Positions 327-51,015 of a stretch of DNA of 64,000 bases are shown piece by piece. A program made the position numbers and the translations under genes. The notes under the pieces were generated by a model. It searched no databases, was not told where the DNA came from, and saw only the letters and a list, made by a program, of their open reading frames with translations. Source of the DNA: Flavobacterium sp. (lineage in GTDB: Bacteria > Bacteroidota > Bacteroidia > Flavobacteriales > Flavobacteriaceae); contig NZ_JAHEBT010000052.1 of the NCBI RefSeq assembly GCF_024642105.1, positions 372,001-436,000 on the forward strand, written 5' to 3'. Positions within the stretch are counted from its first letter, which is position 1, and every line of letters starts with the position of its first letter.

Positions 327-1601
327 TTATAATCCTGTTGCAACAGTTTTTGTTCCTCTTTCTTTGATTAGCTCTTGTCTTACCGCAAAATCACGATACA
401 AAGCCACTGGATTTAATGCAGCACCTGAACGCAAACGTGCCTCAGCTACTAAAGCTCTAACATCGGTACGGAAGGCATTCTGTAAAATTTCTTGTGCTTT
501 TACCACATCATTTTCATTTTGCGCAATTTCTAAAGCTTTTCTATCTACTAATAACGCTTGTGCATAAGCAATCATAATTGCTTCAACAGATTGCAATAAA
601 TCTTCTAATGGATCTTTAACATTATGAGAAGCATCAATCATCCATCCCAAATCTTTGGCATGATTCATTCCTCTAGCATCCATACCTTCTACCAACTCAT
701 TGAAAATCAAAAACAATTGGTAAGGCTTCATTGCTCCTGCAGTCAAATCATCATCTCCGTATTTAGAATCGTTAAAATGGAATCCTCCCAATTTACCTTC
801 CATTAACAATATCGCTACAATTTGTTCAATATTAGCATTTGGCAAATGGTGTCCTAAATCCACTAAAGTAAAGGCTTTATCTCCTAATTTTTTTACATAT
901 GAATACGATTGTCCCCAATCAGCCACAGTAGTAGAATAGAAATTAGGCTCGTTGCTCTTATACTCTAAGTACATCTTCCAATTTGATGGTAAAGCGGCAT
1001 AAATTTCCTCTAAACTTTCCAAGGTATTTTGGTAGGCTTTGCGAAAATTCAACTGCCCAGGAAAACAAGATCCATCGGCCAACCAAACTGTTAAAGACTC
1101 TGAACCCAATGCAATTCCTTGTTGAATTACTTCAATGTTATGTGCAATGGCTTGTTTACGAATAGCTTTATTTACATTCTGTAAAGAACCATATTTATAA
1201 GTGTATTCTTGATTGGTTTGGTCTTGAAATGTATTTGAATTTACCGCATCAAATTTCAGTCCGTGTTGAGAAGCCAAGTTTTTGATAGCTTGATAATCTG
1301 TTGGAATATCCCACGGAATATGTAATGAAATCGCACCTGAAGCATTGTTCAAAGCATGCAACAATCCTACATCTTCTATTTTTTCTTCCAGTGAACGAGG
1401 CTCTCCTCCTCCTGGAAAACGACCAAAACGAGTTCCCCCTGTACCTAATGCCCAAGATGGAATAGCGATTTGAAAATCAATTAATTTTTGGATTATATTT
1501 TCTGTTTCACCAATTTCTGATGCAGTGAAAACTAATTTATTAGCATGCGATTTAAGCAAATCAGCATTATGAGAAGCTATTTTATTTGAATCAAGTAACA
1601 T
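327..1601 (-). CDS. rhaI: L-rhamnose isomerase (Pseudomonas-type catabolic isomerase)
   Basis: This 424-residue TIM-barrel isomerase converts L-rhamnose to L-rhamnulose in the cytoplasm. It resembles the Pseudomonas stutzeri type of rhamnose isomerase rather than the E. coli RhaA type. Metal-binding residues expected for that fold are visible in the second half: MYLEYKSNEP (Glu), LVDLGHHLPN (Asp, His), GFHFNDSKYGDDD (His, Asp) and MIDASHN (Asp). No signal peptide is present. It sits between the aldolase/dehydrogenase gene (115-base gap holding a hairpin) and the kinase (11-base gap), which fits a single rhamnose catabolic operon read from the rhaT promoter. Length and motifs are intact. Confidence 0.9.
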   Translation of the reverse strand: MLLDSNKIASHNADLLKSHANKLVFTASEIGETENIIQKLIDFQIAIPSWALGTGGTRFGRFPGGGEPRSLEEKIEDVGLLHALNNASGAISLHIPWDIPTDYQAIKNLASQHGLKFDAVNSNTFQDQTNQEYTYKYGSLQNVNKAIRKQAIAHNIEVIQQGIALGSESLTVWLADGSCFPGQLNFRKAYQNTLESLEEIYAALPSNWKMYLEYKSNEPNFYSTTVADWGQSYSYVKKLGDKAFTLVDLGHHLPNANIEQIVAILLMEGKLGGFHFNDSKYGDDDLTAGAMKPYQLFLIFNELVEGMDARGMNHAKDLGWMIDASHNVKDPLEDLLQSVEAIMIAYAQALLVDRKALEIAQNENDVVKAQEILQNAFRTDVRALVAEARLRSGAALNPVALYRDFAVRQELIKERGTKTVATGL

Positions 1602-1716: not shown

Positions 1717-3858
1717 CTATCGATAAAATCCCATTGACACCCCACCGTCAACATTCAAGGCATTTCCTGTTGATTTATTCAACAAACCTCCTACGAATGC
1801 ATAACAAGCGTTGGCGATATCATCTGGTAATATAATTTCATTCAACAAAGTACGCTTAGCGTAATAAGCAGGTAATTCTGCTACAGTAATTCCGTAGGCT
1901 TTTGCACGACCTTCTGCCCAACCTCCTGACCAAATATTAGAATCAGAAATTACTGCATCTGGATTAACTGTATTCACACGAATTTTATCTGCACCTAATT
2001 CAGCTGCCATTAATCGTGTTAAGTGAGCCTGAGCCGCTTTGGCCGAACCATATCCAGGATTGTTTGGGCCTGCTACCACTGCATTTTTAGAAACGATATT
2101 CACAATATCTCCTCCAAAACCTTGTTTGCGCATGACCTCAATTCCAGCTTTTGAAACAATAAATTGTCCTTTCACTAAAATATCATACAATCTATCCCAT
2201 TCTTCTAGACTATGTTCCGCAATTGATTTTGAGATACTGATTCCGGCGTTATTCACCACAATATCTACTCCACCAAAGGCTAAACAAGCCGCATCTAGTG
2301 CTTTCTCTGTACTGTTTTCATCGGTCACATTTAAAAGTGCACTTGAAACCGCATCTTTACCAAACATTTTAGTAAAATCTGCCGTAGCTCCTTCTAAACG
2401 TTCTTCATTAATATCATTGATAATTACACAAGCCCCTTCTTCAGCGAAGCGTTTAGCAATTGCTTTTCCAATTCCTCCTGCTGAACCTGTAATTAAAGCT
2501 ACACGTCCTGACAATGCTTTTGGTTTTGGCATACGTTGCAACTTAGCCTCTTCCAATAACCAATATTCAATATCGAAGGCTTCTTGATGAGGCAATGAAG
2601 TATATTCTGAAACTGCTTCAGCTCCTTTCATTACATTCACCGCATTCACATAGTATTCTGAAGCCAAACGGGCCATTGTTTTATCTTTCGCAAAAGTGAA
2701 CATACCAACACCTGGATATAAAATTACCACAGGATTTGGGTCACGCATTGCTGGTGAATTCGATTTTTTACAAGCATTGTAATAGTCTGAATACATAGCT
2801 CTATAGGCTTCAAAAGCAGGTGCTAACTTTGCTTTGATTGCTTCCACATCCGACAAATCTTCATTTGGAGTTAACTCCAATACCAAAGGACTAATTTTAG
2901 TTCTCAAAAAGTGATCTGGGCAAGAAGTTCCAAGCGGCGCTAATCGTTCTAAATCGTTCGAATTAATAAACTCTAATACCCTAGCATCATCTGTATAATG
3001 ACCAATCATTTTGCGCTCTGACGAACAAAATCCACGTAAAATTGGAGCTACTTTAGCGGCTTGTAATTGACGAGAATCTATCGCTAGACTTTCTAGTTTT
3101 TGCCCACCAAAAACAGGACGTTTTTTCCCGTAATTGCTTTCTAAATATTCGGCACATTTCTCAATTACTTCCAAAGTATTGATATAACTTTCATAAGCTG
3201 TATCGCCCCAAGTGAATAATCCGTGAGAACCTAGCATAATTCCTCTTAACTTTTTCCCGCGAGACGCCGCTTCTTCTAAACACGCTCTTAATTGCAATCC
3301 TAAGTCAAACCCTGGTTTTTGCCATCCTACCCAACCGATTTCTCCATTGAATAATTCTTCTGTGATTTTAGCACCGTCTTTAGCGGCTGCAATGGCAATA
3401 GCTGCATCTGGGTGTAAGTGATCAATATGTTTAAAAGGCAAAAATCCATGTAAAGGGGTATCAATAGAAGGTGCTTTTGAAGCCAAATCAAAAATACAGT
3501 GGTTGAATAGCTCTACCATTTCATCTTCAAACTCAATCCCTCTGTACACATTTTCCAAATTGCGCAAACGCTCTAAATAAAGTGCAGCACAACCTGATTT
3601 AGTCAATGTTCCAATATCTCCACCAGAACCTTTAATCCACATTACTTCTGAATCAGCTCCTGTTAATGGGTCTTTATCTGTGATTTTTACTGAAGTATTT
3701 CCTCCTCCGTAATTCGTTAATCTTAAATCAGCTCCTAATAAATTAGAACGGTAAATAAAAAGTGCTACCTCATCTCCTGCTAATGCCTTCGCTTTAGTTT
3801 CATCCCATAAGTAGCTCACGTGTTTAAAAGTCATGTTATCTGTATTTATATTTGACAT
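1717..3858 (-). CDS. rhaD: Bifunctional L-rhamnulose-1-phosphate aldolase / L-lactaldehyde dehydrogenase
   Basis: This is a 713-residue fusion. The N-terminal part (to about residue 430) is a class II aldolase with GGGNTSVKI near the start and the zinc-binding His clusters DHLHPDA and GSHGLFTWG. The C-terminal part (from about 445) is a short-chain dehydrogenase with the NAD motif TGSAGGIG, the NNAG motif and the YGSAK catalytic Tyr/Lys. Proteins of this layout split rhamnulose-1-phosphate into dihydroxyacetone phosphate and L-lactaldehyde and then oxidise the aldehyde (Bacillus-type RhaEW, TIGR RhaD_aldol-ADH family). There is no signal peptide. It lies 31 bases downstream of rhaT, so it is almost certainly co-transcribed. 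Both active sites look complete. Confidence 0.92.
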   Translation of the reverse strand: MSNINTDNMTFKHVSYLWDETKAKALAGDEVALFIYRSNLLGADLRLTNYGGGNTSVKITDKDPLTGADSEVMWIKGSGGDIGTLTKSGCAALYLERLRNLENVYRGIEFEDEMVELFNHCIFDLASKAPSIDTPLHGFLPFKHIDHLHPDAAIAIAAAKDGAKITEELFNGEIGWVGWQKPGFDLGLQLRACLEEAASRGKKLRGIMLGSHGLFTWGDTAYESYINTLEVIEKCAEYLESNYGKKRPVFGGQKLESLAIDSRQLQAAKVAPILRGFCSSERKMIGHYTDDARVLEFINSNDLERLAPLGTSCPDHFLRTKISPLVLELTPNEDLSDVEAIKAKLAPAFEAYRAMYSDYYNACKKSNSPAMRDPNPVVILYPGVGMFTFAKDKTMARLASEYYVNAVNVMKGAEAVSEYTSLPHQEAFDIEYWLLEEAKLQRMPKPKALSGRVALITGSAGGIGKAIAKRFAEEGACVIINDINEERLEGATADFTKMFGKDAVSSALLNVTDENSTEKALDAACLAFGGVDIVVNNAGISISKSIAEHSLEEWDRLYDILVKGQFIVSKAGIEVMRKQGFGGDIVNIVSKNAVVAGPNNPGYGSAKAAQAHLTRLMAAELGADKIRVNTVNPDAVISDSNIWSGGWAEGRAKAYGITVAELPAYYAKRTLLNEIILPDDIANACYAFVGGLLNKSTGNALNVDGGVSMGFYR

Positions 3859-3889: not shown

Positions 3890-4939
3890 TTATAATGAGT
3901 TTCCAATACCCACTATAAAAATGGATGCCAAGATTAGACCGATTCCTAAAAGAAATGTTCGGAACGTTTTTTTGGAAACGCCTGACCATTCTTTTAAATA
4001 AAATCCCCAAAAATTAGCCGTTAAAATGATCGTAGCCATGTGTAAAATCCATGAACTCGCCCCATTACCTAATTTACTTTCTCCCATTCCATAAAAGAAA
4101 AATTGTAAAAACCACATGGTCCCTGCAATAGATGAAAACAGCACATTTTTAGCTATAGGTGTGGCGGTATTGGTGTAATCTACAAATGATTTATTTTTGA
4201 AGTTCAGGTACATACACCAAATGAAGTTAGTGGTTAATCCTCCCCAAAGGATCACGATATAAGTCACGTTATTTTGAAACAACGGGTTAAATCCTTGTCG
4301 CACTGCTTCATCTGCCATTGGCTTTCCAGCTTCGATTCCGAAATTGAAAAATGAACTCAAAATACCCGAAATAATAGCAATAATTAATCCTTTTACTAAA
4401 CTAAAATCTTTGTCTTTATCTTCATGACCTGTAGCAAAATCAGCTTCTTTTAGCATTCCTGCTTTCCCAGAAATTGCTATTCCAATCAGACAAACTAAAA
4501 CTCCAAACAACACCATTTGACCTCCTGTATTAGAAATCATATCCGTAAAAGAAACTTTTCCCTCAACAGGGTAAAAATTATAATAAATAGAAGGGACTAA
4601 TGCTCCAAAAGCAGAACAAAAACCTAATGTTATTGAATTTCCTAAGGACATTCCCAAATAACGCACACCTAATCCATAGGTTAATCCGCCAATACCCCAT
4701 ATCAATCCCATAGTATAGGTTACTGTTTTAATAGAAGGAGCAGTAGCACTAATAATAGCAGAAAAATTAGGAACCGTTAAATAAGCTGCGATGGGTGGTA
4801 CAATGAGCCATGAAAAAAAACCTCCTACAATCCAGTAGCTTTCCCAAGACCATCCTTTTACCTTTTTAAAAGGCATATAAAAACTTCCCGAGGAGAAACC
4901 TCCTATCGAGTGAAATAAAATTCCTAATAATGATTCCAT
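3890..4939 (-). CDS. rhaT: L-rhamnose/proton symporter
   Basis: This 349-residue inner-membrane protein has about ten hydrophobic segments and matches the RhaT family in length (E. coli RhaT is 344 residues). Family-like stretches include FHSIGGFSSGSFYMPFKKVK at the N-terminus, WESYWIVGGFFSWL, and GTMWFLQFFFYGMGESKLG in the second half. It imports L-rhamnose with protons. It is the first gene of the rhaT-rhaD-rhaI-kinase line and is divergent from the GntR regulator. Its promoter carries the ACAGGA direct repeat shared with the pectin genes, so uptake of the monosaccharide appears co-regulated with polymer breakdown. Confidence 0.9.
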   Translation of the reverse strand: MESLLGILFHSIGGFSSGSFYMPFKKVKGWSWESYWIVGGFFSWLIVPPIAAYLTVPNFSAIISATAPSIKTVTYTMGLIWGIGGLTYGLGVRYLGMSLGNSITLGFCSAFGALVPSIYYNFYPVEGKVSFTDMISNTGGQMVLFGVLVCLIGIAISGKAGMLKEADFATGHEDKDKDFSLVKGLIIAIISGILSSFFNFGIEAGKPMADEAVRQGFNPLFQNNVTYIVILWGGLTTNFIWCMYLNFKNKSFVDYTNTATPIAKNVLFSSIAGTMWFLQFFFYGMGESKLGNGASSWILHMATIILTANFWGFYLKEWSGVSKKTFRTFLLGIGLILASIFIVGIGNSL

Positions 4940-6366: not shown

Positions 6367-8256
6367 TTATTTCTTTTTTATCAAATTAAATTGATTGAAT
6401 GGAAGCAATATAATATTAGGTTTTGAAACAGATTTCATCCCTTTTCCCATATAAAAACTAGTGTGAGGTGGCTGATTATATCCAACATTTTGCCAAGCAA
6501 TGCTCAATCTGTATTGAGGATCATGCATCAATGTATATTGTTTAATCTCAGTTGGAATAGTGGTTGTATAAATTCTTAATTCTTTATTATCTGAGCTTCT
6601 TAGAATAAGTTCTTCTCTCCAATCACCGAAGATATCAGCAGAAAGTGCTGGAGTTGATTTAGTCCCATTATTAGATGCCGCGCCTTCAGCTGTAAATAAC
6701 CTTCCAGAACCATACTTATCGATGGTGTTAGAATTGAGCAATTCTCTACTCGAATCTCCGTCCCAATAAATTAAAAAATTAGTTGATGCAGGAACTTTCC
6801 CTACTATGTTTCCTTTAATATCAAATAAAAAAGGAGATCCTGACGACCACATTTGCGCCCCCTCTTTAGTGGCATCAATATTATCCGCAACACCTCTACC
6901 AACATCCTTATTTTGTGAACCTAAAAACAAAATTTCTCCATTAATAGCTGAAAACAAAGCCACTCCAGGACCTGTGGTTCCTTCTTCAATTTCATGAACT
7001 CCAAAAACTTCTAGTCCAGGAATAGTTGGGTCAAAATCACTTACGTGCAAGGCGTCCCCATGTCTCAAACCAGTAGTATACAATCCTTTTCCATTGTCAT
7101 CTACACACATAGAACCAAAAATAATTTCATCCCGTCCATCATTATCTACATCGGCAACCGAAAGATTATGATTCCCCATTCCTGAATAAGGGTCATTCCC
7201 ATTCTTAGTATCGAATACCCATCTAGAACTCATTTTTTTATCTTTGAAATCCCAGGCAGCCAAAACAGTTCTTCCATAATATCCTCTACCCATTACTATA
7301 CTTGGATGAATCCCATCTAAATAAGCCACACAAGCTGTAAAACGATCTGATCGGTTCGCAGTTTTGTCGTTTTTTCCATTACCTCCTTGACCTCCCCAAG
7401 CCCCTAAATCTCCTCTAGATGGAATATAGTCAACGGTACTAATCAATTCTCCTGTTTTTCCATTAAAAATGGAAAGATATTCTGGCCCTTCTACTATTTT
7501 ACCATAAGTAGGTGAATCTGTTTTTTTATCCCTCCAATCTTTGGAAACATCCCCCACTGATTTTCCGAGACTATCCGTAGTACCATCTGCTGTTTTACAT
7601 ACAAATTCCGAAATCCCATCACCATCAAAATCATACACTAAAAATTGAGTGTAATGTGCCCCTTCACGAATATTAATTCCTAAATTGATTTCCCATAAAA
7701 AAACGCCTCCTAAAGTATACGCTTGAAAAACAGGAGGGTCTGTCATTCCTGTAAAAGAAGGATCTAGTCCTTTGCCTGTTAAATGAACTATTAACTCGTA
7801 CTGCCCATCTCCATTCAAATCTCCTACAGCAACATCATTAGGAATGTATCCTATTTTCTCTTTTATAGGAATGGATAAATATTGTCTTTCTAAACTATTA
7901 GAAGGAAGTGTAAAACTCCCTAAGGGATCACTTTCAACACCATCAAGAACGGTGGTAACATACCATGTATTTTCATCCCTAACTTTAGCTTTGGTATCTA
8001 TAAAATTAGTTGCCCCTACGATAGGCGCTTTATTAAGTCGAATTGCAGTGTTACCTGCACTCTTGCGGTATAGGTTAAAGGCCAAATTATCAGGGTCGGT
8101 ACCTAAAACTCTCCATCCAATAAAAAAATTACCATTATCATTTACTACAATTACACCTCTGTCTAGTGCTTCCATTTGTCTTTGACCAAAAAGGGTCCAA
8201 CCAGACAAAATGAATAAAACCAACAATAAGTGACTTTTTTTAAAAAAATTTATCAT
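6367..8256 (-). CDS. Rhamnogalacturonan lyase, polysaccharide lyase family 11
   Basis: This 629-residue secreted lyase has a Sec signal peptide (cleavage after about LFGQ, residue 25). The mature protein has the PL11 layout: a short N-terminal beta domain, then an eight-bladed propeller rich in calcium-binding DxDGDG loops (DLNGDGQYE, DFDGDGISE, DVDNDGRDE), with GNHNLSVADV and HDPQYRLSIAWQN typical of the family. It cleaves the rhamnose-galacturonate backbone of RG-I by beta-elimination, leaving unsaturated ends for the GH105 enzymes of this locus. It is the last gene of the minus-strand operon beginning at 14087, 27 bases after its neighbour. All parts appear complete. Confidence 0.93.
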   Translation of the reverse strand: MINFFKKSHLLLVLFILSGWTLFGQRQMEALDRGVIVVNDNGNFFIGWRVLGTDPDNLAFNLYRKSAGNTAIRLNKAPIVGATNFIDTKAKVRDENTWYVTTVLDGVESDPLGSFTLPSNSLERQYLSIPIKEKIGYIPNDVAVGDLNGDGQYELIVHLTGKGLDPSFTGMTDPPVFQAYTLGGVFLWEINLGINIREGAHYTQFLVYDFDGDGISEFVCKTADGTTDSLGKSVGDVSKDWRDKKTDSPTYGKIVEGPEYLSIFNGKTGELISTVDYIPSRGDLGAWGGQGGNGKNDKTANRSDRFTACVAYLDGIHPSIVMGRGYYGRTVLAAWDFKDKKMSSRWVFDTKNGNDPYSGMGNHNLSVADVDNDGRDEIIFGSMCVDDNGKGLYTTGLRHGDALHVSDFDPTIPGLEVFGVHEIEEGTTGPGVALFSAINGEILFLGSQNKDVGRGVADNIDATKEGAQMWSSGSPFLFDIKGNIVGKVPASTNFLIYWDGDSSRELLNSNTIDKYGSGRLFTAEGAASNNGTKSTPALSADIFGDWREELILRSSDNKELRIYTTTIPTEIKQYTLMHDPQYRLSIAWQNVGYNQPPHTSFYMGKGMKSVSKPNIILLPFNQFNLIKKK

Positions 8257-8283: not shown

Positions 8284-10407
8284 TTAAAACATCTTTTTAA
8301 ACCCTTCACTTTGTACTTTCCAAGTACCATCTTTTGGGAATCCAGGATTGACCTCTGTACTTCCATCCCATCCAGCACACATCATAGCAACAGCTGCTAA
8401 CACTCCTCCATTTCCTGGCAAATACAAGCGAAGTCGTTCATCTTGAAAATTATGCCCATTTTTTAAATAGGTATTGGTTCTAACATTCATAAACAAAGCA
8501 TCCACAGCTTTTTCTGGAAGCTGTAAACGTGCCGCACACATAGCAGTCATTGGAAAATCCCATCCCCATGTTTTTTCCCAAGACCAATTGTCCCAAATCA
8601 AATTAAATGTATTTTTCATTATGGATTTATCCAAAAGGCTTGTCTCTGGAAGCATTCCAAAGGTCCCTAACACCGAAGGATGATCTGTCTTAAATTCGGG
8701 ATTTGTATAGGAATCTGTAGCACTTTCTGTGGCAAGATATACTTGATTCTTCACAGGAAGAGGGGCTAATTTTATAGCTACTTCTTTCCATCGTTCTGGA
8801 ACAGATTCATTCAATCTTTTCTTCCAATTAATGGCAGTATTTAATGCCCAATTCCAATACGCCAACTCATACGTTGGGTTAAACGTTTCCATTGCCTTAA
8901 AACGTTCTTGTGCAGGAATAACTCCGGGTCCCAAATTATAAACTTTCTTTTCAGGATCATATTGTGCAAACGAAGCCATAAAATCTGCCGTAGCAAAAAC
9001 ACGTTCTTTGTATTTTTCTAAAGTCAGCTGAGTAGGTAAGGAACGGTACAACAACTCCGCATAGGTAATAAAATGAGGTTGTTGCCAAATAAGAAAAGAA
9101 CCTATTGAAGATGGGCTTTCATTGCCATCAGGGTCAGTCATTTTTTGCCATCTAGCACCCTCGAATCCTTGTCTTTGGGCAATTATTTTAGCTTTATCGA
9201 AAACTTTTTGATACCACGGAAGACTTTTTTCAAGTAACTCCGGACGATTCCAGAGTGCAAAATGTACCCCGTGCCACCAATGCATTTCTAAATGGGGTTT
9301 TCCGTACCAACTGTTATAGGTCAAACCTGTTTCTTGAGGAGGTACTGTTCCAGTACACTGTAGTTTTGTTACATATTGAGAAAGGATGACTCTTCGTTCC
9401 AATTCATGGGCGCGTTTGTCTGTGCTTCCCGAAAAATCAACCGCTGCACCACTCTCCCAAAAATGTTGCCAACCTGATGTACTACTAGTTTGAATCTCCG
9501 AAAATGAAGGAACTGTTTGTTCTTTATTGGTTGTTGGGGCAAACAAACAGCTCAGTTCTATGGTGTTTGTTTTAAAAGGTTCTATTAGAAAATAATGATT
9601 GCCTTTCTTTTTTAATTGAGCATTCCCTTTCCAATTCAAACGAATAGCATAAGAGAGACTATCCATCTCATGCGTCACAAGAGCCGATGTCTTAGTTTTT
9701 TGGACAACCGTACTTATATAATCTTCAACACCTTCCCATTTCGTTCCTGTATCGTCCCAATTTCCTGTTGGATACGGAATTTTTAATCGAATTTTCAACC
9801 TCCCACTTTGAAGTAAATCAGATTGTATTTTAACCCCTATCGCGTCTTTATTTTGATGGGAAGAAGTTTTCACCTTCACTGGTATTCCTTCAAGGATGAA
9901 AGAACTTTCAATTTCACCAGTCCATAAATTTAATACCTGAGAAATCGATTTAATATCCTTAGGTTGAGCCAAGGTGCCATCTTTTTTAACCAACTCAAAT
10001 CCTAAATTACCTAATTGCAATAAATGTGGATTTTGCCTGAACCAATTGACCGCTTCTTTAACTCTTTCGGGGGTTTTCAACTGAGTCGTATACGAGATAT
10101 TTCGACCAAACTGTTTAAATTCTTTTAAGGTTTCTGAAAATTTATACTGATTCTTATTTTTATAACTATCCCAACCCCATTCTGAAGCTGTGCCTAATGG
10201 AACTCCATTCTTATAGGTATCTGGAAAAGTTTGCAATCCTGTAGCATCTACCGTAAATGCAAAAGTACCATTCCCTACCGTTAAAGAAGCTAAAGTATCT
10301 ATCTCGTGGACATGAACATTATGACGACTGACTAACGCTTTTCGGTCTATTTTAGATTGCGCTAATAGGGAAAAAGAGAATAATAAGAGTATAAAATTGT
10401 ACTTCAT
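8284..10407 (-). CDS. Secreted putative glycosidase, family not recognised
   Basis: A 707-residue protein with a clear signal peptide (ending LLAQ, residue 18). I cannot assign it to a family. The middle contains EMHWWHGVHFALWNRPELLE and repeated Trp/Tyr-rich helices (ETFNPTYELAYWNWALN, WGWDFPMTAMCAARL), which suggest an alpha/alpha-toroid catalytic domain like that of GH65 or GH95 enzymes behind an N-terminal beta-sandwich (about residues 20-290). Candidate acid residues are plentiful but I cannot pick the catalytic pair. It lies between the DUF4450 gene (11-base gap) and the PL11 lyase (27-base gap), so it probably acts on rhamnogalacturonan fragments. That role is inferred from position only. 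Confidence 0.6.
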   Translation of the reverse strand: MKYNFILLLFSFSLLAQSKIDRKALVSRHNVHVHEIDTLASLTVGNGTFAFTVDATGLQTFPDTYKNGVPLGTASEWGWDSYKNKNQYKFSETLKEFKQFGRNISYTTQLKTPERVKEAVNWFRQNPHLLQLGNLGFELVKKDGTLAQPKDIKSISQVLNLWTGEIESSFILEGIPVKVKTSSHQNKDAIGVKIQSDLLQSGRLKIRLKIPYPTGNWDDTGTKWEGVEDYISTVVQKTKTSALVTHEMDSLSYAIRLNWKGNAQLKKKGNHYFLIEPFKTNTIELSCLFAPTTNKEQTVPSFSEIQTSSTSGWQHFWESGAAVDFSGSTDKRAHELERRVILSQYVTKLQCTGTVPPQETGLTYNSWYGKPHLEMHWWHGVHFALWNRPELLEKSLPWYQKVFDKAKIIAQRQGFEGARWQKMTDPDGNESPSSIGSFLIWQQPHFITYAELLYRSLPTQLTLEKYKERVFATADFMASFAQYDPEKKVYNLGPGVIPAQERFKAMETFNPTYELAYWNWALNTAINWKKRLNESVPERWKEVAIKLAPLPVKNQVYLATESATDSYTNPEFKTDHPSVLGTFGMLPETSLLDKSIMKNTFNLIWDNWSWEKTWGWDFPMTAMCAARLQLPEKAVDALFMNVRTNTYLKNGHNFQDERLRLYLPGNGGVLAAVAMMCAGWDGSTEVNPGFPKDGTWKVQSEGFKKMF

Positions 10408-10418
10408 GATTTTAATTT

Positions 10419-13400
10419 TTATCTAGCTAAGGTAACACTCATTAATCCAATGACTACATCATTAGCAATTGTTCGTAACGTAAGACTTTTCAATTTTTTG
10501 TTTTTATTCAAGGGTAAATCTAAAATGGTAGCAGCTCCACCATCAATTGATTTCCCATTGTATTTTTCTTTTGACTCCTTTCCAGAAACGATTGTTCCTG
10601 TTTTTAAATGAACCCGCATAGGCCGTGGTATTTTCAATGCAAAAGCAAAACCATCTGTATAATAATCTTGTTCTATTGGCCACCAGGTTTCTGGATTTCG
10701 TAACACCAATTTATCGGTTGTGCCATCAGTATATTCAATAATTACAACACCATTATCAAATTGGCTTTGCATAGGATTTGTAGAACCCGCCATTAAAAAC
10801 CACGCGTGAGAAGCATTTCCTGTAAGTGGAATGGTTTTCTCTTTTGGATAATTATCCCATTGCGAAGTGAATAAAATATTGTTGGCACCTTCTATCCCTG
10901 GGGTTGAAAATAAAACACCCTGAGGAAGTGTGATTGTGTTCTTTTCTCCTGCTAATTTGCGGAAACCACCATCATCTACATCAAATGTTCGTAATGAATG
11001 TGGCCAATCGCCTATCCCTTGCCAAGGGAGTTGTAAAGTAGTAACCTGTGGTCGTGGAGACAGGTATTTATTTTTAAAGATTTGGGTAACCTTATCATTA
11101 AAATACCCTGACAAATCAACAGTTTCTAGCTTATCTTTTGTAGTAGCCTGCCAATTGTATAACGATTCAGTTACAATTTCACCATTAGAAAGTGTAATGG
11201 TTACGAGATTTGTTCCTGTCATCAGGTTGTTTTCAGGAACTACTACCTCTGTACTAAATTTACCCGAAGGAATGTCGACTGATGTAGTAAATCCGTTGAC
11301 ACGTACAACTGCTTGTACAGGACTGTTTGTATTATTCTGCAATACAAAACTATTGCTATTTTCCTCCGAATCCTTTCTTGTAATTAAACGAACCGCCTTT
11401 TCAACTTTGAAACAAATGGGCATCCACCACGATAATTTTCCTTGTTGTAATTGTAGAAATACAGTATAATTTCCAGCTGAAGCATTAACTTTAGCTGAAA
11501 ATCCCGATGATTGAGTAACAATATTCTTCAATGCGTTTTGTGGGTCATTTACTTTTAAAACAGTTGCTCCTGAAAAATTTTCGTTTATCAAACTACCATT
11601 TATATATGTTTTTTCAGCAGGCGGCAATACCGGTTTATCTCCTTGCCAAGTAATATGGATTACATATTTATCAGATGCGGTTGTGTTAATTTCGATTACT
11701 GGTTTGCCTACAGCTGAAGCTATATTTATCCAACTAACCGATTTCCCATTTATAGTAATGTTTTTTACCTGACCTTTAGCAATAGCTTGGAATTTTAAAT
11801 TAAGACTTTGAGGTAATTTAGGTTCCAATGTATACACATCTTTTGGACCACTACGTTTAAAATCAAACGAAATATCTGGTGTGGCAAAAGAAGCGTAATT
11901 CCAAGTTGAAGGCAAACCTGGGCGAATAGTAAGTCTGTTACTCAACCCATTTGGTACAATCCCAAAAAGACCTTCTACCAAAGCTCTTGAAAACATTCCT
12001 ATAGGATCGCCAAAATCTCTGTAAGCTTCATTACGTATCGCGTCATAATACGAAATTTGCACAAAATTACCAGGGCTTCCGCCAAGGTACATCGAAGCTA
12101 GCACCTCACTTTTAAATAATTTATACGCTTCGTCAGTACGACCTCCTTGCCAATTGGCAAGTGCTGTATGCATCGATTCTGCCAATACCGAATTGTTTAA
12201 TGACCACTCATAAGGCATCCATTTGGTAGTAGAAAGCGTATAATAACCATCATCATCTAAACCTTTTGCTTTTATGGGAATATGTGGTATTTCATTATCG
12301 ATGTAACGCAAACTCTGATAGGCCTGAAATGGGTTCGTCGTTTCCGAATCTAAACTGTGATAAACCGTCCATAATGCAGGTGCCGAATGCAATAAACGGT
12401 TTCCCAATGCATCTTTATATTCGGCAAAAGTCCCCTTATCTTTCATCCATAATTGAGTATTCATCGCGTTCAAAATCGTATCAGCCTCATTACGGTAAGG
12501 TGTTGGGTCTTCACCAAGAATAGTGGCTATTTGTGCCGCTTTTTTGAATGCATAATAATTATAAGCCGATGAATGTGCCACACCTCCGCCACTATATTGC
12601 AAGGCATCGCTCGCCCAAATAGCTGCATAAGCATCGTACAAACCATCTCTATCCGAATCAAAATTGCGAGTCTCCCATTCTAGATGACGCTTTACTACCG
12701 GCCAAGTTTCCTTTAAAAAAGTCATATCAGCCGTCCATTCGTAATGCCGCAATAATATATCGATATATACTAAATTCATATCGTAATGATGTGCAGTTAG
12801 TTTTTCTCCATTAGGATTTCTACTAATATAACCACTCGTAAACATTCCTACTCCAAGTTTCTCAAGACTTCGAGACAGATGATGTACCGTATCGGCAATA
12901 ACAGATCCGCTCATTGGGCTTGTTAGTTGAGATTTAGCATAGCTTTCTAAATGCATTTTGGCTCGGTCATGCCAACCCAAAGCATCTGCAGTATATGCAC
13001 CTCGCCAACCATTCAATCGCATACGCCAACCTATTGAACCGTGCATATAAGACGGTGCTTCCCAAGTAGCATCTGATGCTATCGCCAAAGTTCCACCAAG
13101 AGTATTAATATAAGGATCTGGAGTAGTGATGGTAATACGATCTGCTATTGATTTTCGAGCTATTTCTGCCTTTGCAAAAACCTGAGGTACCTCACTATAA
13201 TTAAACGCAATTTTAGTAGCTGGATTATGGATAGTAAAGTAATAATCCGTATTGGTTTTAGCATCTATTCTACCTGCTAAAGCGGGCGCACCTTCTGCAT
13301 TCGAATCATAAAATCCTTGTGGTGTGTTTAATTTAGTAGCCTCACTTATTTTTAGTGTAGCCTCTGAAGGAAAAGTTCCTACTAATACTTGTGCTTTAAG

Positions 13401-14087
13401 TTTTTTAGATTCTTGCTTTAAATCTTCTACAAAATAGCGACCGTCTTTTCCGACTTCTAATCCCGTTCCGTATTGCAAAGTAAAGCCTGTGTTTTCAATC
13501 GTATAATTATTATCCTTGCAATTTTCGGGTTTTAGGTAAAAACTTGATTCAGGATCTGGCCCCATGTCTCCATCACGACTGAACTTTTTACCCGAAGCAC
13601 CACCAAAAGCCCAGAATAATACAACGGGTGTTTTTACATCTTGCATTTTTGCTTTTATAATACAACCTTCCGCATCTGCCATTGCCAATACTTCCAGCAA
13701 CAATTTTCCAGTTCCAAGCATCGGGTCTTCTATAGTATAAAGCATCGCACCAGCTCTATATCTTGCCGTAATTGTTTTAGCTGTAGTAAGCCATTTACTA
13801 GTAGTGCCTGTACCAATACCTAATTTAAAATTACCTCCCATTCCTGGCATATACAAAGCAAATTCTGGTAAATCACCGGCCTCAACTCTAAACGCTGTAT
13901 GGGTTCCATAGAGCGCTCTATTGAATTTTCTTGTACCATTTTTCAGAAGAAAACTATCTCCATCAGGCACATAATGCATTGTACGGACATTTCCGTGCCA
14001 AAGGGCTTTTTCTTGACCAATAATTATAATTGGCAATAAAAAAAACAGACAGTTAAAAAAAAGACGAGGTATTTTATTATGTATCAT
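10419..14087 (-). CDS. Large secreted DUF4450-type protein, putative glycoside hydrolase
   Basis: The track ORF begins at 14129, but I prefer the Met at 14087: it opens a standard signal peptide (IPRLFFNCLFFLLPIIIIGQ) and keeps the usual distance to the operator. The mature protein has about 1200 residues. The N-terminal third, with NRALYGTHTAFRVEAGDLPE and LYMPGMGGNFKLGI, matches what I remember of DUF4450 proteins of Bacteroidota. The middle (about 360-760) is an alpha/alpha-barrel with TSPMSGSVIADTVHHLSRS, HHYDMNLVYIDILLRHYEW and SRDGLYDAYAAIWASDALQY. The C-terminal third is beta-rich, with probable carbohydrate-binding modules. It is first in the operon with the unclassified enzyme and PL11. 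Activity on an RG-I side chain is inferred. Confidence 0.7.
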   Translation of the reverse strand: MIHNKIPRLFFNCLFFLLPIIIIGQEKALWHGNVRTMHYVPDGDSFLLKNGTRKFNRALYGTHTAFRVEAGDLPEFALYMPGMGGNFKLGIGTGTTSKWLTTAKTITARYRAGAMLYTIEDPMLGTGKLLLEVLAMADAEGCIIKAKMQDVKTPVVLFWAFGGASGKKFSRDGDMGPDPESSFYLKPENCKDNNYTIENTGFTLQYGTGLEVGKDGRYFVEDLKQESKKLKAQVLVGTFPSEATLKISEATKLNTPQGFYDSNAEGAPALAGRIDAKTNTDYYFTIHNPATKIAFNYSEVPQVFAKAEIARKSIADRITITTPDPYINTLGGTLAIASDATWEAPSYMHGSIGWRMRLNGWRGAYTADALGWHDRAKMHLESYAKSQLTSPMSGSVIADTVHHLSRSLEKLGVGMFTSGYISRNPNGEKLTAHHYDMNLVYIDILLRHYEWTADMTFLKETWPVVKRHLEWETRNFDSDRDGLYDAYAAIWASDALQYSGGGVAHSSAYNYYAFKKAAQIATILGEDPTPYRNEADTILNAMNTQLWMKDKGTFAEYKDALGNRLLHSAPALWTVYHSLDSETTNPFQAYQSLRYIDNEIPHIPIKAKGLDDDGYYTLSTTKWMPYEWSLNNSVLAESMHTALANWQGGRTDEAYKLFKSEVLASMYLGGSPGNFVQISYYDAIRNEAYRDFGDPIGMFSRALVEGLFGIVPNGLSNRLTIRPGLPSTWNYASFATPDISFDFKRSGPKDVYTLEPKLPQSLNLKFQAIAKGQVKNITINGKSVSWINIASAVGKPVIEINTTASDKYVIHITWQGDKPVLPPAEKTYINGSLINENFSGATVLKVNDPQNALKNIVTQSSGFSAKVNASAGNYTVFLQLQQGKLSWWMPICFKVEKAVRLITRKDSEENSNSFVLQNNTNSPVQAVVRVNGFTTSVDIPSGKFSTEVVVPENNLMTGTNLVTITLSNGEIVTESLYNWQATTKDKLETVDLSGYFNDKVTQIFKNKYLSPRPQVTTLQLPWQGIGDWPHSLRTFDVDDGGFRKLAGEKNTITLPQGVLFSTPGIEGANNILFTSQWDNYPKEKTIPLTGNASHAWFLMAGSTNPMQSQFDNGVVIIEYTDGTTDKLVLRNPETWWPIEQDYYTDGFAFALKIPRPMRVHLKTGTIVSGKESKEKYNGKSIDGGAATILDLPLNKNKKLKSLTLRTIANDVVIGLMSVTLAR

Positions 14088-14152
14088 ACTTTGTTTTTCT
14101 TTGATGTGTTTTGAAAAACTGAAAGGCAATTTCTTTATTTTAAAATGATTTA

Positions 14153-18524: not shown

Positions 18525-20033
18525 ATGAAAATAATCAAAATAGCCTTAGTGCTACTTATAGCACTCTTATTTTTCAATTTTAAAGATAAAGACCACCCTA
18601 AACCTGTTATCTATCTCGTAGGTGACTCCACTGTAAAAAATGGAAAAGGTGATGGAGCTGGCGGACTTTGGGGTTGGGGCGATTTCATCGGACAATTTTT
18701 GGATACTACAAAAATAAGCGTTCAAAATCATGCCTTAGGCGGAACAAGTAGCCGTACTTTTCAAAGTAAAGGATTATGGGAACCCGTTTACAATAAGCTT
18801 AAAAAGGGAGATTATGTAATAATCCAATTTGGTCACAACGACGATGGACCATTGAACGATACACTTCGTGCAAGAGGTACCATCAAAGGCATTGGAGAAG
18901 AAACCCAAGAAATTGACAATATGCTAACCAAAAAACATGAAACTGTTCACAGCTACGGTTGGTATATACAAAAAATAGTAAAAGAGGTCAAATCAAAAGG
19001 GGCAATCCCAATCATTTGTTCCCCTATTCCAAGAAACGATTGGGCAGCAGGGAAAGTACCAAGAAACGACAAATCGTATGGATTATGGACCAAACAAATT
19101 GCTGAAAAAGAAAACGTGACTTTTATCGATTTGAATGCTATAATGGCTCTTAAAATGGATACATTAGGAGAATCTAATGTTACGGAAACTTATTTTTACA
19201 AAAGAGATCATACACATACTTCTGCAAAAGGGGCTGTGATGTCAGCTACTTCAATTATTGAAGGTTTGAAAGCGAGTGATAACCCATTAAAAAAATACAT
19301 TTTAGACAATCCAAAAATTATACTTCCTGCCAAGAAAAAAATCTATTTGATTGGCGATTCGACAATGGCCAATAATGGCAACAATCCTAATGCCGTAGGT
19401 TGGGGAGTTGCCTTCCCTAAATATTGCGACACCACTAGAATTGAAGTTATCAATAAAGCCCGTGGTGGAAGAAGCACTCGTACTTTTGTTAAAGAAGGAT
19501 TGTGGGATATGGTAAAAAATCAATTAAAACCCGGAGACTTCATTATGATTCAATTTGGTCATAACGATGCTGGAGCGATTGATAAAGAAAAATTTAGAGG
19601 TTCGTTAAAAGGAAATGGTAATGAAACACAACAAGTGGTTCGAGATAGTATCACTGAAACGGTGCAAACTTTTGGTTGGTATATGGAAAAATTCGTCAAA
19701 GAAGCGAAAGAAAAAGGAGCTATTCCAATCGTTTTGAGTCAAACGCCAAGAAACGAATGGCCAAACGACAAAGTGGAACGAAGAGCTGATTCTTACGGAG
19801 GATGGTCGAAAATTGCAGCAGAAAATACAGGTGCTTTTTTCATCGATTTAAACGAACTTGTAGCCTTGAAATACGAGCAATTAGGTAAAGAAAAAGTCAA
19901 TACCTTTTTTCCAAAAGACCATACACATACAGGTATTGATGGGGCTATTTTTAATGCCGAAACGGTTGCCGAAAGCCTAAAAAAAATCAGAAAAATTGGC
20001 CTTGAAGAATATATTATACTTCCAAAAAAATAA
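18525..20033 (+). CDS. Protein with two tandem CE12 rhamnogalacturonan acetylesterase domains
   Basis: A 502-residue secreted protein made of two complete SGNH/CE12 domains in one chain. Domain 1 (about 28-260) has LVGDSTVKNG, NHALGGTSSRTF, IQFGHNDDG and RDHTHTSAKG. Domain 2 (about 268-495) has LIGDSTMANNG, NKARGGRSTRTF, IQFGHNDAG and KDHTHTGIDG. Both keep all four catalytic blocks and share an insert (GxGxETQ...) and a GWY(I/M)xK helix, so they arose by internal duplication. A short hydrophobic N-terminus (ALVLLIALLFFNF) is a signal peptide or anchor. It lies 6 bases after the GH2. Both halves presumably deacetylate RG-I, perhaps at different positions; that split is inferred. Confidence 0.85.
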   Translation: MKIIKIALVLLIALLFFNFKDKDHPKPVIYLVGDSTVKNGKGDGAGGLWGWGDFIGQFLDTTKISVQNHALGGTSSRTFQSKGLWEPVYNKLKKGDYVIIQFGHNDDGPLNDTLRARGTIKGIGEETQEIDNMLTKKHETVHSYGWYIQKIVKEVKSKGAIPIICSPIPRNDWAAGKVPRNDKSYGLWTKQIAEKENVTFIDLNAIMALKMDTLGESNVTETYFYKRDHTHTSAKGAVMSATSIIEGLKASDNPLKKYILDNPKIILPAKKKIYLIGDSTMANNGNNPNAVGWGVAFPKYCDTTRIEVINKARGGRSTRTFVKEGLWDMVKNQLKPGDFIMIQFGHNDAGAIDKEKFRGSLKGNGNETQQVVRDSITETVQTFGWYMEKFVKEAKEKGAIPIVLSQTPRNEWPNDKVERRADSYGGWSKIAAENTGAFFIDLNELVALKYEQLGKEKVNTFFPKDHTHTGIDGAIFNAETVAESLKKIRKIGLEEYIILPKK

Positions 20034-33386: not shown

Positions 33387-34721
33387 TTATTTTTTAACTT
33401 TAAGTTGTAATGAGCTATCGTTAATTTCAAATTCATTGTTTTTTAACAACAATAGCACTTCTGAACCTGCTAATAAAACCGGTCCGTAGCCATGAGCTGC
33501 AAACAAATTCACTGGACGATAGTAGTAGAAAGCAGGGTCAAATCCCATTCCTGTCCCCACACAAGTACCCTCTACTTGTCCTTTTGGATTGACTTTCGTC
33601 GCCACTGCATTCCATCCCAAAAGTACTGCTGGAGCAAAAGCCATTTTATCTATATACCCACGATTGATAGCTCTAGCAATGGAATAAGTATAAATAGCCG
33701 TTGCCGAAGTTTCTAAATAAGTATCATTTTTATCAATCAATTGGTGCCAAAATCCTGTTCCGTCTTGGTATTTTACCAATCCATTAATATGGGCCTGTAA
33801 TTGTGCCAAGACTCCCGCATATCCAGGATGATTTTTTGGCAAAACTTCCAATAATTCTACCATAGTCATTACTGCCCAACCATTGGCTCTAGCCCAGTGA
33901 AATTGAGGATGAACTGACATGGATTGCACCCATCCGTGCATATAAATCCCTTTCTCTTTGTTGAACATTCTTTCTGAAAACTGATTGACTTGTTTAACCG
34001 CATCATCAAAATATTTTGTATCTCCTGTGTAACTTCCCATTTGGGCTAAAGCTGGAACTCCCATAAACATATCATCAAGCCATAGCGTATTGTCTTGTGG
34101 TCTATTACGAGCTAAAGTACCATCTTTAAGTCGGAATTCTTTTTCACTGATGTAAGTAACTAAATTGTTAATTAAAGGATCAATATCGCCTTTAAACCCA
34201 TTTCTCTTTGCCTTAATAAAAGCGGCACAAACTGCTCCTCCATCATCCAATGCTCTTGGATGCAATAGCGAATGGATTGGGGTATCTTTTTCATTTTTAG
34301 GCTTATAATTTTCCGCCAAGTCACTCAATAATTTTAATCTACTATTCGTGTAATCTGCAAAATATTTTTCGCCTGTAGCCTCAGAGGCCAAAAGCATTCC
34401 GGCGTAAGTAACGCCCCATTCATAACTGGTCAATCTAAACGCTCCTGGTTCAAAAATCACATTCTCTTTTACTTTCTTAAGATCTTTAATTTCTTGTTTG
34501 GTAGTAGCATCTATTACTTTAGAAGCCGTATTCTGGTTTAAAAAAGTATATACTCTATCCAAAACAGCTTTAACATTCTCCTTTTGAGGCACACCATACG
34601 GAGTAGGATATTCTGGTTTAAGTAAATGCAATGGTGTAGTAACATCGTTAGTCTGAGCATTTACCGAGGTAAAAAACCCAATACACAATAAAGCTAAAAT
34701 GTTGGTTTTTAAAATTTTCAT
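33387..34721 (-). CDS. Unsaturated rhamnogalacturonyl hydrolase, GH105 (444 aa)
   Basis: A secreted enzyme with a signal peptide ending SVNAQ. The alpha/alpha-barrel shows GH105 motifs: TSYEWGVTYAGMLLASEATG, HPRALDDGGAVCAAFI, WLDDMFMGVPALAQMG with the catalytic Asp, HWARANGWAVMTMVELLEVLP, and GTCVGTGMGFDPAFYYYRP near the end. GH105 hydrates the unsaturated galacturonyl residue left at the non-reducing end by PL11, which releases it from rhamnose. It lies between the DUF4861 gene (7-base gap) and the PL22-like gene. A second GH105 at 51040 is only distantly similar. Confidence 0.9.
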   Translation of the reverse strand: MKILKTNILALLCIGFFTSVNAQTNDVTTPLHLLKPEYPTPYGVPQKENVKAVLDRVYTFLNQNTASKVIDATTKQEIKDLKKVKENVIFEPGAFRLTSYEWGVTYAGMLLASEATGEKYFADYTNSRLKLLSDLAENYKPKNEKDTPIHSLLHPRALDDGGAVCAAFIKAKRNGFKGDIDPLINNLVTYISEKEFRLKDGTLARNRPQDNTLWLDDMFMGVPALAQMGSYTGDTKYFDDAVKQVNQFSERMFNKEKGIYMHGWVQSMSVHPQFHWARANGWAVMTMVELLEVLPKNHPGYAGVLAQLQAHINGLVKYQDGTGFWHQLIDKNDTYLETSATAIYTYSIARAINRGYIDKMAFAPAVLLGWNAVATKVNPKGQVEGTCVGTGMGFDPAFYYYRPVNLFAAHGYGPVLLAGSEVLLLLKNNEFEINDSSLQLKVKK

Positions 34722-48279: not shown

Positions 48280-51015
48280 ATGTCAACAAAATCAAACCTT
48301 AACCATATTATAATTATTTTATTCTCGGTTTTTTCTCAAGGAATAGTAAGTCAAACAATCGCTTCTCCTTGGCCAAAAATAACCAATACCAGTCAACCTT
48401 GGGCTCGTTGGTGGTGGATGGGAAGTGCTGTAGACAAACCCAATCTCAAAAAAAACCTGATTGATTTACGAAAAGCTGGAATTGGAGGAGTAGAAATTAC
48501 CCCAATCTACGGGGTTAAAGGGCAAGAAAATAATTTCATAGATTATCTTTCTCCTAAGTGGATGGAAATGTTAGATTATACCATCAAAATTGCAGACAGT
48601 ACAGGTATGCAAGTAGATATGGTTTTAGGTACTGGATGGCCTTATGGAGGTCCTCAAGTAGATGTACCTCATGCTGCAACCAAACTAATTGTAGAAAAAT
48701 ATACTGTAAAAAAAGGGGCTAAATTCATTCAAGAAATCAAGATAGACCCTACCAAAGAAAAAACACCAGCGCAATTACTACATGTTGTTGGTTATGGAGC
48801 TGACGGCAGTTATATAGACTTAACCAATCAATTAAAAGAAAACATATTAGAATGGACAGCCAAAAAAACAGACTATACCTTATATGGCGTTTTTAGTGGT
48901 AAAACCGGACAACAAGTAAAACGTGCTGCACCTGGTGGCAAAGGATACACTTTAGACCATTATTCAGAAGAAGCACTCAATACTTATGTGACTCCTTTTA
49001 ATACTGCTCTTAAAGGTTTTGAAGGTAGAATTCGCTCTATTTTCAATGACAGCTACGAAGTATATGGCACTGATTTTACACCTCAATTCTTCAAAGAATT
49101 TGAGAGTCGAAGAGGATACGACCTTAAAAAAGAATTGCCAAAACTTCTCAGCAAAAACAATCTAGAAGCCGACAATAGAATAAAAAGTGACTACCGCGAG
49201 ACGCTATCCGATTTGTTGTTGAATCGTTTTGATAAACCTTGGACCAATTGGGCGCACTCTAAAAACTTTAAAACAAAATTACAAGCACACGGTTCTCCTG
49301 GCAATCTAATAGATTTATATGCTTCAGCAGACATTCCTGAATGCGAGACTTTTGGTTCCATGCCATACGACGTTTTAGGATTAAGACGAGAAAAACAAGA
49401 CATTCGCGAAGGCGATGCCGACCCTGTAATGCTAAAATTCTCATCTTCGGCAGCTCATATTTCTGGCAAACCATTAGTTTCATCAGAAACATTTACTTGG
49501 TTACGTGATCATTTCAAAATAGCCTTATCTCAGTGCAAACCCGAAGCAGAAGATTTACTCTTAAACGGTGTTAATCATATTTTCCTGCACGGCTCTACCT
49601 ACTCACCAGAAAATGCAAAATGGCCGGGTTGGAAATTTTATGCGTCGGCTAATTTTAATGCTAACAACACCACTTGGGAAGATGCTCCTGCCCTATTTTC
49701 TTATATTGCCAATTGCCAATCGATGTTGCAACAAGGAAAATCAGATAATGAAACTTTATTGTATTGGCCTGTATATGATACTTGGAGTCACTATCTTGAA
49801 GGCTCTTTATTCATCGAATTTAAGATCCACTCTTTGGGTGAATGGTTAAAAAACACCCCTTTTTATACTACCACACAAAACTTGATAAAACAAGGTTATG
49901 GAGTCGATTTTATCTCGGATAATTTCATTGCACAAGCCCAAGTAGTAGATGGAAAAATAGCGCTCCCTGGAGGCACATTCAAATCATTAATTGTCCCTCC
50001 TTCCGAAAAAATGCCATTAGCTACATTAGAAAAATTAATCGCACTAAAAAAAGCTGGCGGCAAAATTATTTTTGAAGGACTTCCCTCATCTGTTCCTGGA
50101 TATTTTGAATACGAAAATCAAAACAAACAAATGATTGCTTTGCTTGACGCTAATAAAGAAATTCTTCAACCAACAAGCGATATCTCAAAAGCACTAGCAG
50201 AGGCTAAAGTATATCCTGAAAAATTAATTGAAACTGGATTAAAATACATCCGAAGAGATAGCAACGGTGAGAAAATATACTATATCGTTAACCACACTTC
50301 AAAAACGATTGATGATTTTATTCCGCTACAAATTGCTAATAAAGAGGTAGTGATTTTTGACCCATTAACTAAAGATTATGGTAACGCGATTGTACAGAAA
50401 CAAAACGATATAACTATGGTTAAAGTCCATTTAGAGTCGGGGCAAGCCTTGTTCTTGAAAACCGAAAATCAAGCTTCTCAACCAAAATGGAAGTACACAG
50501 AAAAAACAAACGAACCCATCGCATTAAATGGCAATTGGAAAATATCCTTCGACAAAGGAGGACCTCAACTTCCTTCTAAAGCTTCATTGTCTAGTTTAAA
50601 ATCTTGGACCACATTAAGCCCCGAAGCCGAAGCATTCTCTGGAACAGCAACCTACAGTTTATCTTTTAACGCACCTAACATAACCGCTGATAATTGGAGT
50701 TTGAATTTGGGCGACGTTCGCGAAAGCGCTCAAGTATGGCTTAATGGTGTTTTTATCGGAACAGCATGGGCAAACCCATTTAGTTTGAATATTGGAAAAC
50801 TAAAAAAAGGAAAAAACGAACTCACGATTAAAGTAACTAATCTTGGTGCCAACCGTATCCGAAATATGGAACTAAAAGGGGAAGAATGGAAAATATTTTA
50901 CGAAATCAATATGGTAGACAAAGACTATAAAAAATTTGATGCAACTAAATGGGAACCTACTCCTTCAGGATTATTAGGACCTGTAAGTATCACACCTTTA
51001 CAAAACAAGAACTAA
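48280..51015 (+). CDS. Alpha-L-rhamnosidase, GH106
   Basis: A 911-residue secreted enzyme with a signal peptide (to about residue 25). The start of the mature protein, PWARWWWMGSAVDKPNLKKN and GIGGVEITPIYGVKGQE, with MVLGTGWPYGGPQV, is diagnostic for GH106. The TIM barrel continues with SSETFTWLRDHFKIAL and NGVNHIFLHGSTYSPE. The C-terminal 200 residues form a GH2-like sugar-binding sandwich (SAQVWLNGVFIGTAWANPF). GH106 releases alpha-L-rhamnose from RG-I oligosaccharides, feeding RhaM, RhaI and the kinase. The gene is 3 bases after PL22 and 24 bases before GH105. Confidence 0.92.
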   Translation: MSTKSNLNHIIIILFSVFSQGIVSQTIASPWPKITNTSQPWARWWWMGSAVDKPNLKKNLIDLRKAGIGGVEITPIYGVKGQENNFIDYLSPKWMEMLDYTIKIADSTGMQVDMVLGTGWPYGGPQVDVPHAATKLIVEKYTVKKGAKFIQEIKIDPTKEKTPAQLLHVVGYGADGSYIDLTNQLKENILEWTAKKTDYTLYGVFSGKTGQQVKRAAPGGKGYTLDHYSEEALNTYVTPFNTALKGFEGRIRSIFNDSYEVYGTDFTPQFFKEFESRRGYDLKKELPKLLSKNNLEADNRIKSDYRETLSDLLLNRFDKPWTNWAHSKNFKTKLQAHGSPGNLIDLYASADIPECETFGSMPYDVLGLRREKQDIREGDADPVMLKFSSSAAHISGKPLVSSETFTWLRDHFKIALSQCKPEAEDLLLNGVNHIFLHGSTYSPENAKWPGWKFYASANFNANNTTWEDAPALFSYIANCQSMLQQGKSDNETLLYWPVYDTWSHYLEGSLFIEFKIHSLGEWLKNTPFYTTTQNLIKQGYGVDFISDNFIAQAQVVDGKIALPGGTFKSLIVPPSEKMPLATLEKLIALKKAGGKIIFEGLPSSVPGYFEYENQNKQMIALLDANKEILQPTSDISKALAEAKVYPEKLIETGLKYIRRDSNGEKIYYIVNHTSKTIDDFIPLQIANKEVVIFDPLTKDYGNAIVQKQNDITMVKVHLESGQALFLKTENQASQPKWKYTEKTNEPIALNGNWKISFDKGGPQLPSKASLSSLKSWTTLSPEAEAFSGTATYSLSFNAPNITADNWSLNLGDVRESAQVWLNGVFIGTAWANPFSLNIGKLKKGKNELTIKVTNLGANRIRNMELKGEEWKIFYEINMVDKDYKKFDATKWEPTPSGLLGPVSITPLQNKN

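Follow-up and report, generated by a model that had tools for sequence, protein, structure and literature searches.

Which reaction does the 707-aa protein encoded beside a PL11 rhamnogalacturonan lyase in this Flavobacterium sp. genome carry out, and to what family does it belong? All positions given here are those of the window, the whole stretch of 64,000 nucleotides that was analysed. The genes on which the question turns are:

8284..10407, minus strand: 707-aa protein, secreted (alpha/alpha)6 toroid, candidate exo-alpha-glycosidase (ORF, AlphaFold model, Foldseek)
10354..10407, minus strand: putative signal peptide, residues 1-18 of the 707-aa protein (by inspection)
6367..8256, minus strand: PL11 rhamnogalacturonan lyase, next gene downstream (Pfam RGL11_C, E=4e-194)
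10419..14129, minus strand: DUF4450 protein, next gene upstream, GH94/GH116-like toroid with C-terminal beta domains (domain match, fold search)

A complete, exported member of a three-gene run

The 707-aa gene is a single open frame of 707 codons in the window, and its product begins with MKYNFILLLFSFSLLAQS, which by eye resembles a signal peptide. Only 11 bp separate the stop of the DUF4450 gene from its start, and 27 bp separate its own stop from the PL11 start codon; it is therefore the middle gene of a tight DUF4450–target–PL11 run. A preliminary description had called the protein complete, secreted and tightly coupled to the lyase, and all three points stand: the frame is uninterrupted from ATG through stop, inspection finds a putative signal-peptide N-terminus, and the PL11 gene follows on the same strand. 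The PL11 call is secure, as the protein also matches the PDB PL11 entries 4cag, YesW and YesX. Nor is the 707-aa ORF a product of chance, because relatives at 36–79% identity span three phyla.

A large family without a name

Searching Pfam, NCBIfam, PHROGs and PDB sequences with the single protein returned no naming match, so the earlier statement that the protein could not be placed holds for every family library searched (Pfam, NCBIfam, PHROGs). We found at least 589 confirmed matching stretches of the family in species genomes; the best 80 of these at least 589 matches are all from Bacteroidota, at 57–79% identity. A true copy is present in 27 of 396 Bacteroidota genomes, a count that leaves out weaker rows representing GH65-like proteins or a fragment. 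Plasmids carry relatives at 36–41% identity in the Alphaproteobacteria and Actinomycetota (Asticcacaulis, Arthrobacter, Paenarthrobacter, Streptomyces and Nonomuraea). Leaders differ across the family: Bacteroidota relatives have Sec, lipoprotein-like or other N-terminal hydrophobic leaders, those of Asticcacaulis and Streptomyces are twin-arginine-like, and the Paenarthrobacter and Nonomuraea proteins are leaderless.

Wherever they are annotated, members are labelled ‘hypothetical protein’, and our literature search returned no paper describing the family and none on DUF4450. Viral contigs yielded no relatives, and a viral fold library matched the model of the protein with distant GH65/GH95 toroids alone. 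L082, which at first seemed to be another copy in the genome, proved to be a chance match inside an ORF resembling a transcriptional regulator. The family is large, conserved and spread over at least three phyla, and the preliminary description had seen neither it nor its closest link, the DUF4450 gene. We regard it as a candidate new CAZy family as judged against Pfam, NCBIfam, PHROGs and PDB; a recent-family or ‘unclassified GH’ entry may exist.

A GH65/GH95-like toroid filed in neither family

An AlphaFold2 model built from alignment A1 (54 sequences of the family; pLDDT 95.3, pTM 0.94) shows an (alpha/alpha)6 toroid with an N-terminal beta-sandwich, as in GH65. The top Foldseek match in the PDB was FjGH65A (7fe3, a GH65 alpha-1,2-glucosidase; E 4e-26, TM 0.69/0.73, 15% identity), followed by GH95 structures, GH65 phosphorylases, human PGGHG and then GH139. 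The alpha/alpha-toroid suggested earlier from Trp/His-rich helices is borne out by the model and its GH65/GH95 matches, and the motif quoted at that time, EMHWWHGVHFALW, is present at residues 374–386.

Family models placed the protein less readily. The Pfam GH65 models did not match it, the scanned relatives fell below the 27-bit cut-off, and the best E among the 54 members was 1e-7; some members weakly match the GH65/GH95 N-terminal and GH65 central Pfam models. The match to the kojibiose hydrolase model (NF053734) lay far below cut-off, and neither the protein nor its scanned relatives rose above cut-off for the GH95 catalytic domain (PF22124). Because the HMM cut-offs and the base features of both families failed, we file the protein in neither GH65 nor GH95; that it works like a GH65/GH95 enzyme is nevertheless the best reading. 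GH65, GH95 and GH139 cleave alpha-glycosides by inversion (PMC8626586, PMC12282258).

With the GH65 hydrolases (FjGH65A, PDB 7fe3; kojibiose hydrolase, NF053734), the protein has in common its domain order, toroid fold and the place of the acid Glu, but it is only ~15% identical, an HLEM loop replaces FjGH65A Trp343-Asp344 at the -1 subsite, and its gene lies in a pectin context whereas theirs lie in dextran contexts. It likewise has its toroid in common with the GH95 alpha-L-fucosidase/galactosidase enzymes (AfcA 2eab-2eae, 4ufc), whose NxEM loop and TGW(S) Trp resemble its HxEM and WGW(D). The GH139 2-O-methyl-L-fucosidase (9hyq), an RG-II pectin enzyme, belongs to the same superfold but matches less well (query-normalised TM 0.59) and has a different active site. 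One family member weakly matched the N-terminal model of the DUF5703 proteins (PF18961); these are separate proteins, and the sequences compared lack the HLEMHWWH and WGWD motifs.

A predicted acid and a candidate base

In FjGH65A the acid is Glu472 and the base Glu616 (PMC8626586), while a Glu acid and an Asn base aided by an Asp have been proposed for GH95 and GH139 (PMC12282258). We aligned A1 by hhalign with relatives of the GH65 hydrolases (FjGH65A-like; 96.5%) and with GH95 (97.3%), leaving out the profile alignment to cytosolic GH65 phosphorylases, which was too weak in the C-terminal half, and scored invariance over 61 family sequences from three phyla. Three motifs emerged (hhalign, invariance):

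9271..9294, minus strand: HLEMHWWH, residues 372–379, -1 subsite loop; H372 at the GH95 Asn-base position
8905..8922, minus strand: VIPAQE, residues 496–501; E501, predicted general acid (FjGH65A Glu472)
8557..8568, minus strand: WGWD, residues 614–617; W616, the GH95 TGWS Trp; D617, candidate base or activator

Five of the residues that never vary in the 61 sequences lie in and beside EMHWWHGVHFALW (H372, E374, W378, H379 and W386); the others are W420, K422, W441, E501, E514, W614-W616, D617, P664 and N666, with K370 and R419 near-invariant. The assignment of E501 as general acid is well supported, because VIPAQE aligns without gaps on VIGANE (FjGH65A Glu472) and E501 is invariant; against GH95 the acid position is off by two residues. 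E430, which a short PDB alignment had brought under suspicion as the acid, is conserved in 52 of the 61 only, and E501 fits instead.

The alignments place the base at neither known position. The GH65 base Glu616 corresponds to N653/H652 (N653 by ungapped count), and both were rejected as base because they vary among the 61. HLEM (residues 372–375) aligns with GH95 NxEM, so H372 stands for Asn423 and K370 for Asn421; the Asn421/Asn423 and Asp766 system of GH95 is thus replaced by K370, H372 and P664. WGWD aligns with GH95 TGWS, and the invariant Asp617 and His372 sit in neighbouring nucleophile-side loops. We infer, from an alignment at ~15% identity, that D617 is the best base candidate, and judge its membership of the base machinery to be evenly balanced.

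A pectin locus linked to DUF4450 and rhamnose genes

Further genes of the window bear on the substrate:

33387..34721, minus strand: GH88/GH105 (unsaturated galacturonyl hydrolase type; domain match)
48280..51015, plus strand: GH106 alpha-L-rhamnosidase family protein (domain match)
3890..4939, minus strand: RhaT, L-rhamnose/proton symporter (above curated cut-off)
1717..3858, minus strand: RhaD-type bifunctional rhamnulose-1-phosphate aldolase/dehydrogenase (above curated cut-off)
327..1601, minus strand: L-rhamnose isomerase homologue (E=7e-147, below cut-off)

The closest link of the family is the DUF4450 gene. Among the 396 sampled genomes, 15 of 15 with DUF4450 also carry the 707-aa gene, and DUF4450 occurs nowhere else among them; for PL11 the figure is 17 of 21 (Fisher 3e-20 and 2e-19, respectively, statistics that ignore phylogeny and relatedness). 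The DUF4450 gene and the 707-aa gene lie within ~4 kb of each other in 11 of the 15. Modelled over 811 residues (pLDDT 79), the DUF4450 protein has fold matches among GH94 phosphorylases and among GH116-type beta-glycosidases, and the pair may therefore unite an alpha-acting with a beta-acting toroid. Over 37 dereplicated loci the commonest neighbours were DUF4450 (20), GH105 (16), PL11, CE12-type GDSL, GH28, GH43 and GH2 (11 each) and GH106 (4). In Asticcacaulis, of a different phylum, a pectate lyase adjoins and DUF4450 is nearby; GH88 genes lie beside the homologue on 2 of 3 plasmids, and the CB 48 plasmid also has GH28 and oligogalacturonate lyase genes.

Several further arrangements were seen in these loci. 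Two GDSL/CE12-type esterase domains share one polypeptide at 18525-20033 (+), and in some relatives (e.g. L046, L062, L080) two adjacent genes each match this double esterase. A BD-FAE alpha/beta-hydrolase esterase is fused to a GH43-type domain at 52206-54014 (+), and related RG-I loci encode GH43-GH28 fusions (L067:13521-15764, L069:2856-5159). A DUF4861 protein (34729-36021, -) and a PKD-domain protein (36037-37134, -) adjoin the GH88/GH105 gene in the same pectin cluster. Unlabelled ORFs lie upstream of the homologues at L035, L045, L048 and L053 (Pedobacter, Arcicella, Emticicia); the one scanned, L035:6737-7963, matched a beta-helix model only.

In the window, genes for transporting and catabolising L-rhamnose lie next to the 707-aa operon. 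RhaT occurs in 13 of 80 loci (the best 80 of at least 589 matches), and in two Emticicia the order is 707-aa homologue, RhaT, GH105, with RhaT directly next.

Actinomycetota copies have MFS or ABC transporters and GH3, GH1 or GH97 genes as neighbours, not pectinases; since some members are also leaderless, the family is not confined to pectin. The leaderless L194 and L195 (Paenarthrobacter, Nonomuraea) share operon-like runs with sugar transporters and GH3 or GH1. The family may possess a second, non-pectin specificity, and the context would suit intracellular cutting of imported diglycosides, e.g. rhamnosyl-glucosides.

Proposed function and its rivals

We consider it likely that the protein is catalytically active as an alpha-glycosidase on pectic oligosaccharides, those of RG-I or others, and somewhat more likely than not that it belongs to an unnamed family of the GH65/GH95 superfamily and is exported to act on RG-I lyase products as an inverting exo-alpha-glycosidase, with inversion, base and substrate all predicted. 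In the periplasm its substrates would be the oligosaccharides left where PL11 has cut the RG-I backbone. The leaving glycosidic oxygen would receive a proton from Glu501 while water held by the WGWD/HLEM loops attacks the anomeric carbon, with Asp617, possibly via or with His372, as general base and Trp616 stacking on the -1 sugar. Alpha-L-rhamnose is the likeliest -1 sugar on three grounds: genes for rhamnose use are linked, 6-deoxy-L-sugar hydrolases are found within the superfold, and rhamnosyl-glucosides would go well with the GH1/GH3 partners of the actinobacterial copies. RhaT would then import the L-rhamnose released. This specificity nonetheless falls somewhat short of an even chance, and neighbouring rhamnose genes fit any RG-I-trimming enzyme. 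The preliminary description had read the gene's position as a sign of a missing activity in RG-I breakdown, an argument we rejected: the locus already holds GH28, GH105, GH106, GH2 and GH43 genes, so elimination cannot identify the reaction. The presence of GH106, GH28 and GH105, which cover the known RG-I backbone exo-steps, also weighs against the exo-alpha-glycosidase reading itself, as do the Actinomycetota neighbourhoods.

Alpha-D-galacturonate on rhamnose comes second as the -1 sugar, though it is improbable. Such an exo-alpha-D-galacturonidase would remove non-reducing-end GalA (GalA-alpha-1,2-Rha) and free rhamnose for RhaT; it draws on the same locus evidence, and a carboxylate could be bound by K422 (invariant) together with K370 and R419 (nearly so). 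GH28 proteins are already in the locus, however, and the GH1/GH3 partners in Actinomycetota fit galacturonides poorly, which leaves this enzyme unlikely. A GH95-like alpha-L-fucosidase or alpha-L-galactosidase on RG-I or arabinogalactan side chains is similarly unlikely: the fold closely matches GH95 and GH139 and W616 aligns with the GH95 Trp, but the GH95 Asn pair and Asp are replaced (N423->H372, N421->K370, D766->P664) and a non-systematic look noticed no L-fucose genes beside the 707-aa gene. L-fucose, L-galactose or another sugar, taken together, is a slightly better but still doubtful prospect as the substrate.

Two readings depart further from the exo-alpha-glycosidase. Many invariant His, Trp and Asn residues in the pocket loops and the lack of a carboxylate at the classical base positions could point to a polysaccharide lyase or to a toroid that binds carbohydrate but has lost catalysis. 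The 50 best PDB fold matches include no lyase, however, and E501 and D617 are absolutely invariant; we hold this very unlikely. A GH65-type alpha-glucoside phosphorylase would have the same fold and, like the GH65 phosphorylases, no hydrolytic base, yet the protein is exported (putative leader), W614-G615 occupies the place of the two phosphate-binding serines of GH65 (ungapped count) and no phosphorylase family model scored above cut-off; we give it hardly any credence.

Our most far-reaching proposal, made tentatively, is that the protein founds a new multi-phylum GH65/GH95-superfold glycoside hydrolase family that releases an RG-I sugar with an unusual base, the invariant Asp617/His372 pair replacing the Glu of GH65 or the Asn/Asp of GH95, and forms a conserved module with the DUF4450 toroid. 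If so, a family of three or more bacterial phyla that no searched library names would gain a fold, a predicted acid and short lists of candidate bases and substrates; the breakdown of a major pectin would gain an extra step, toroid hydrolases a new case of a changed base, and the DUF4450 gene a functional partner.
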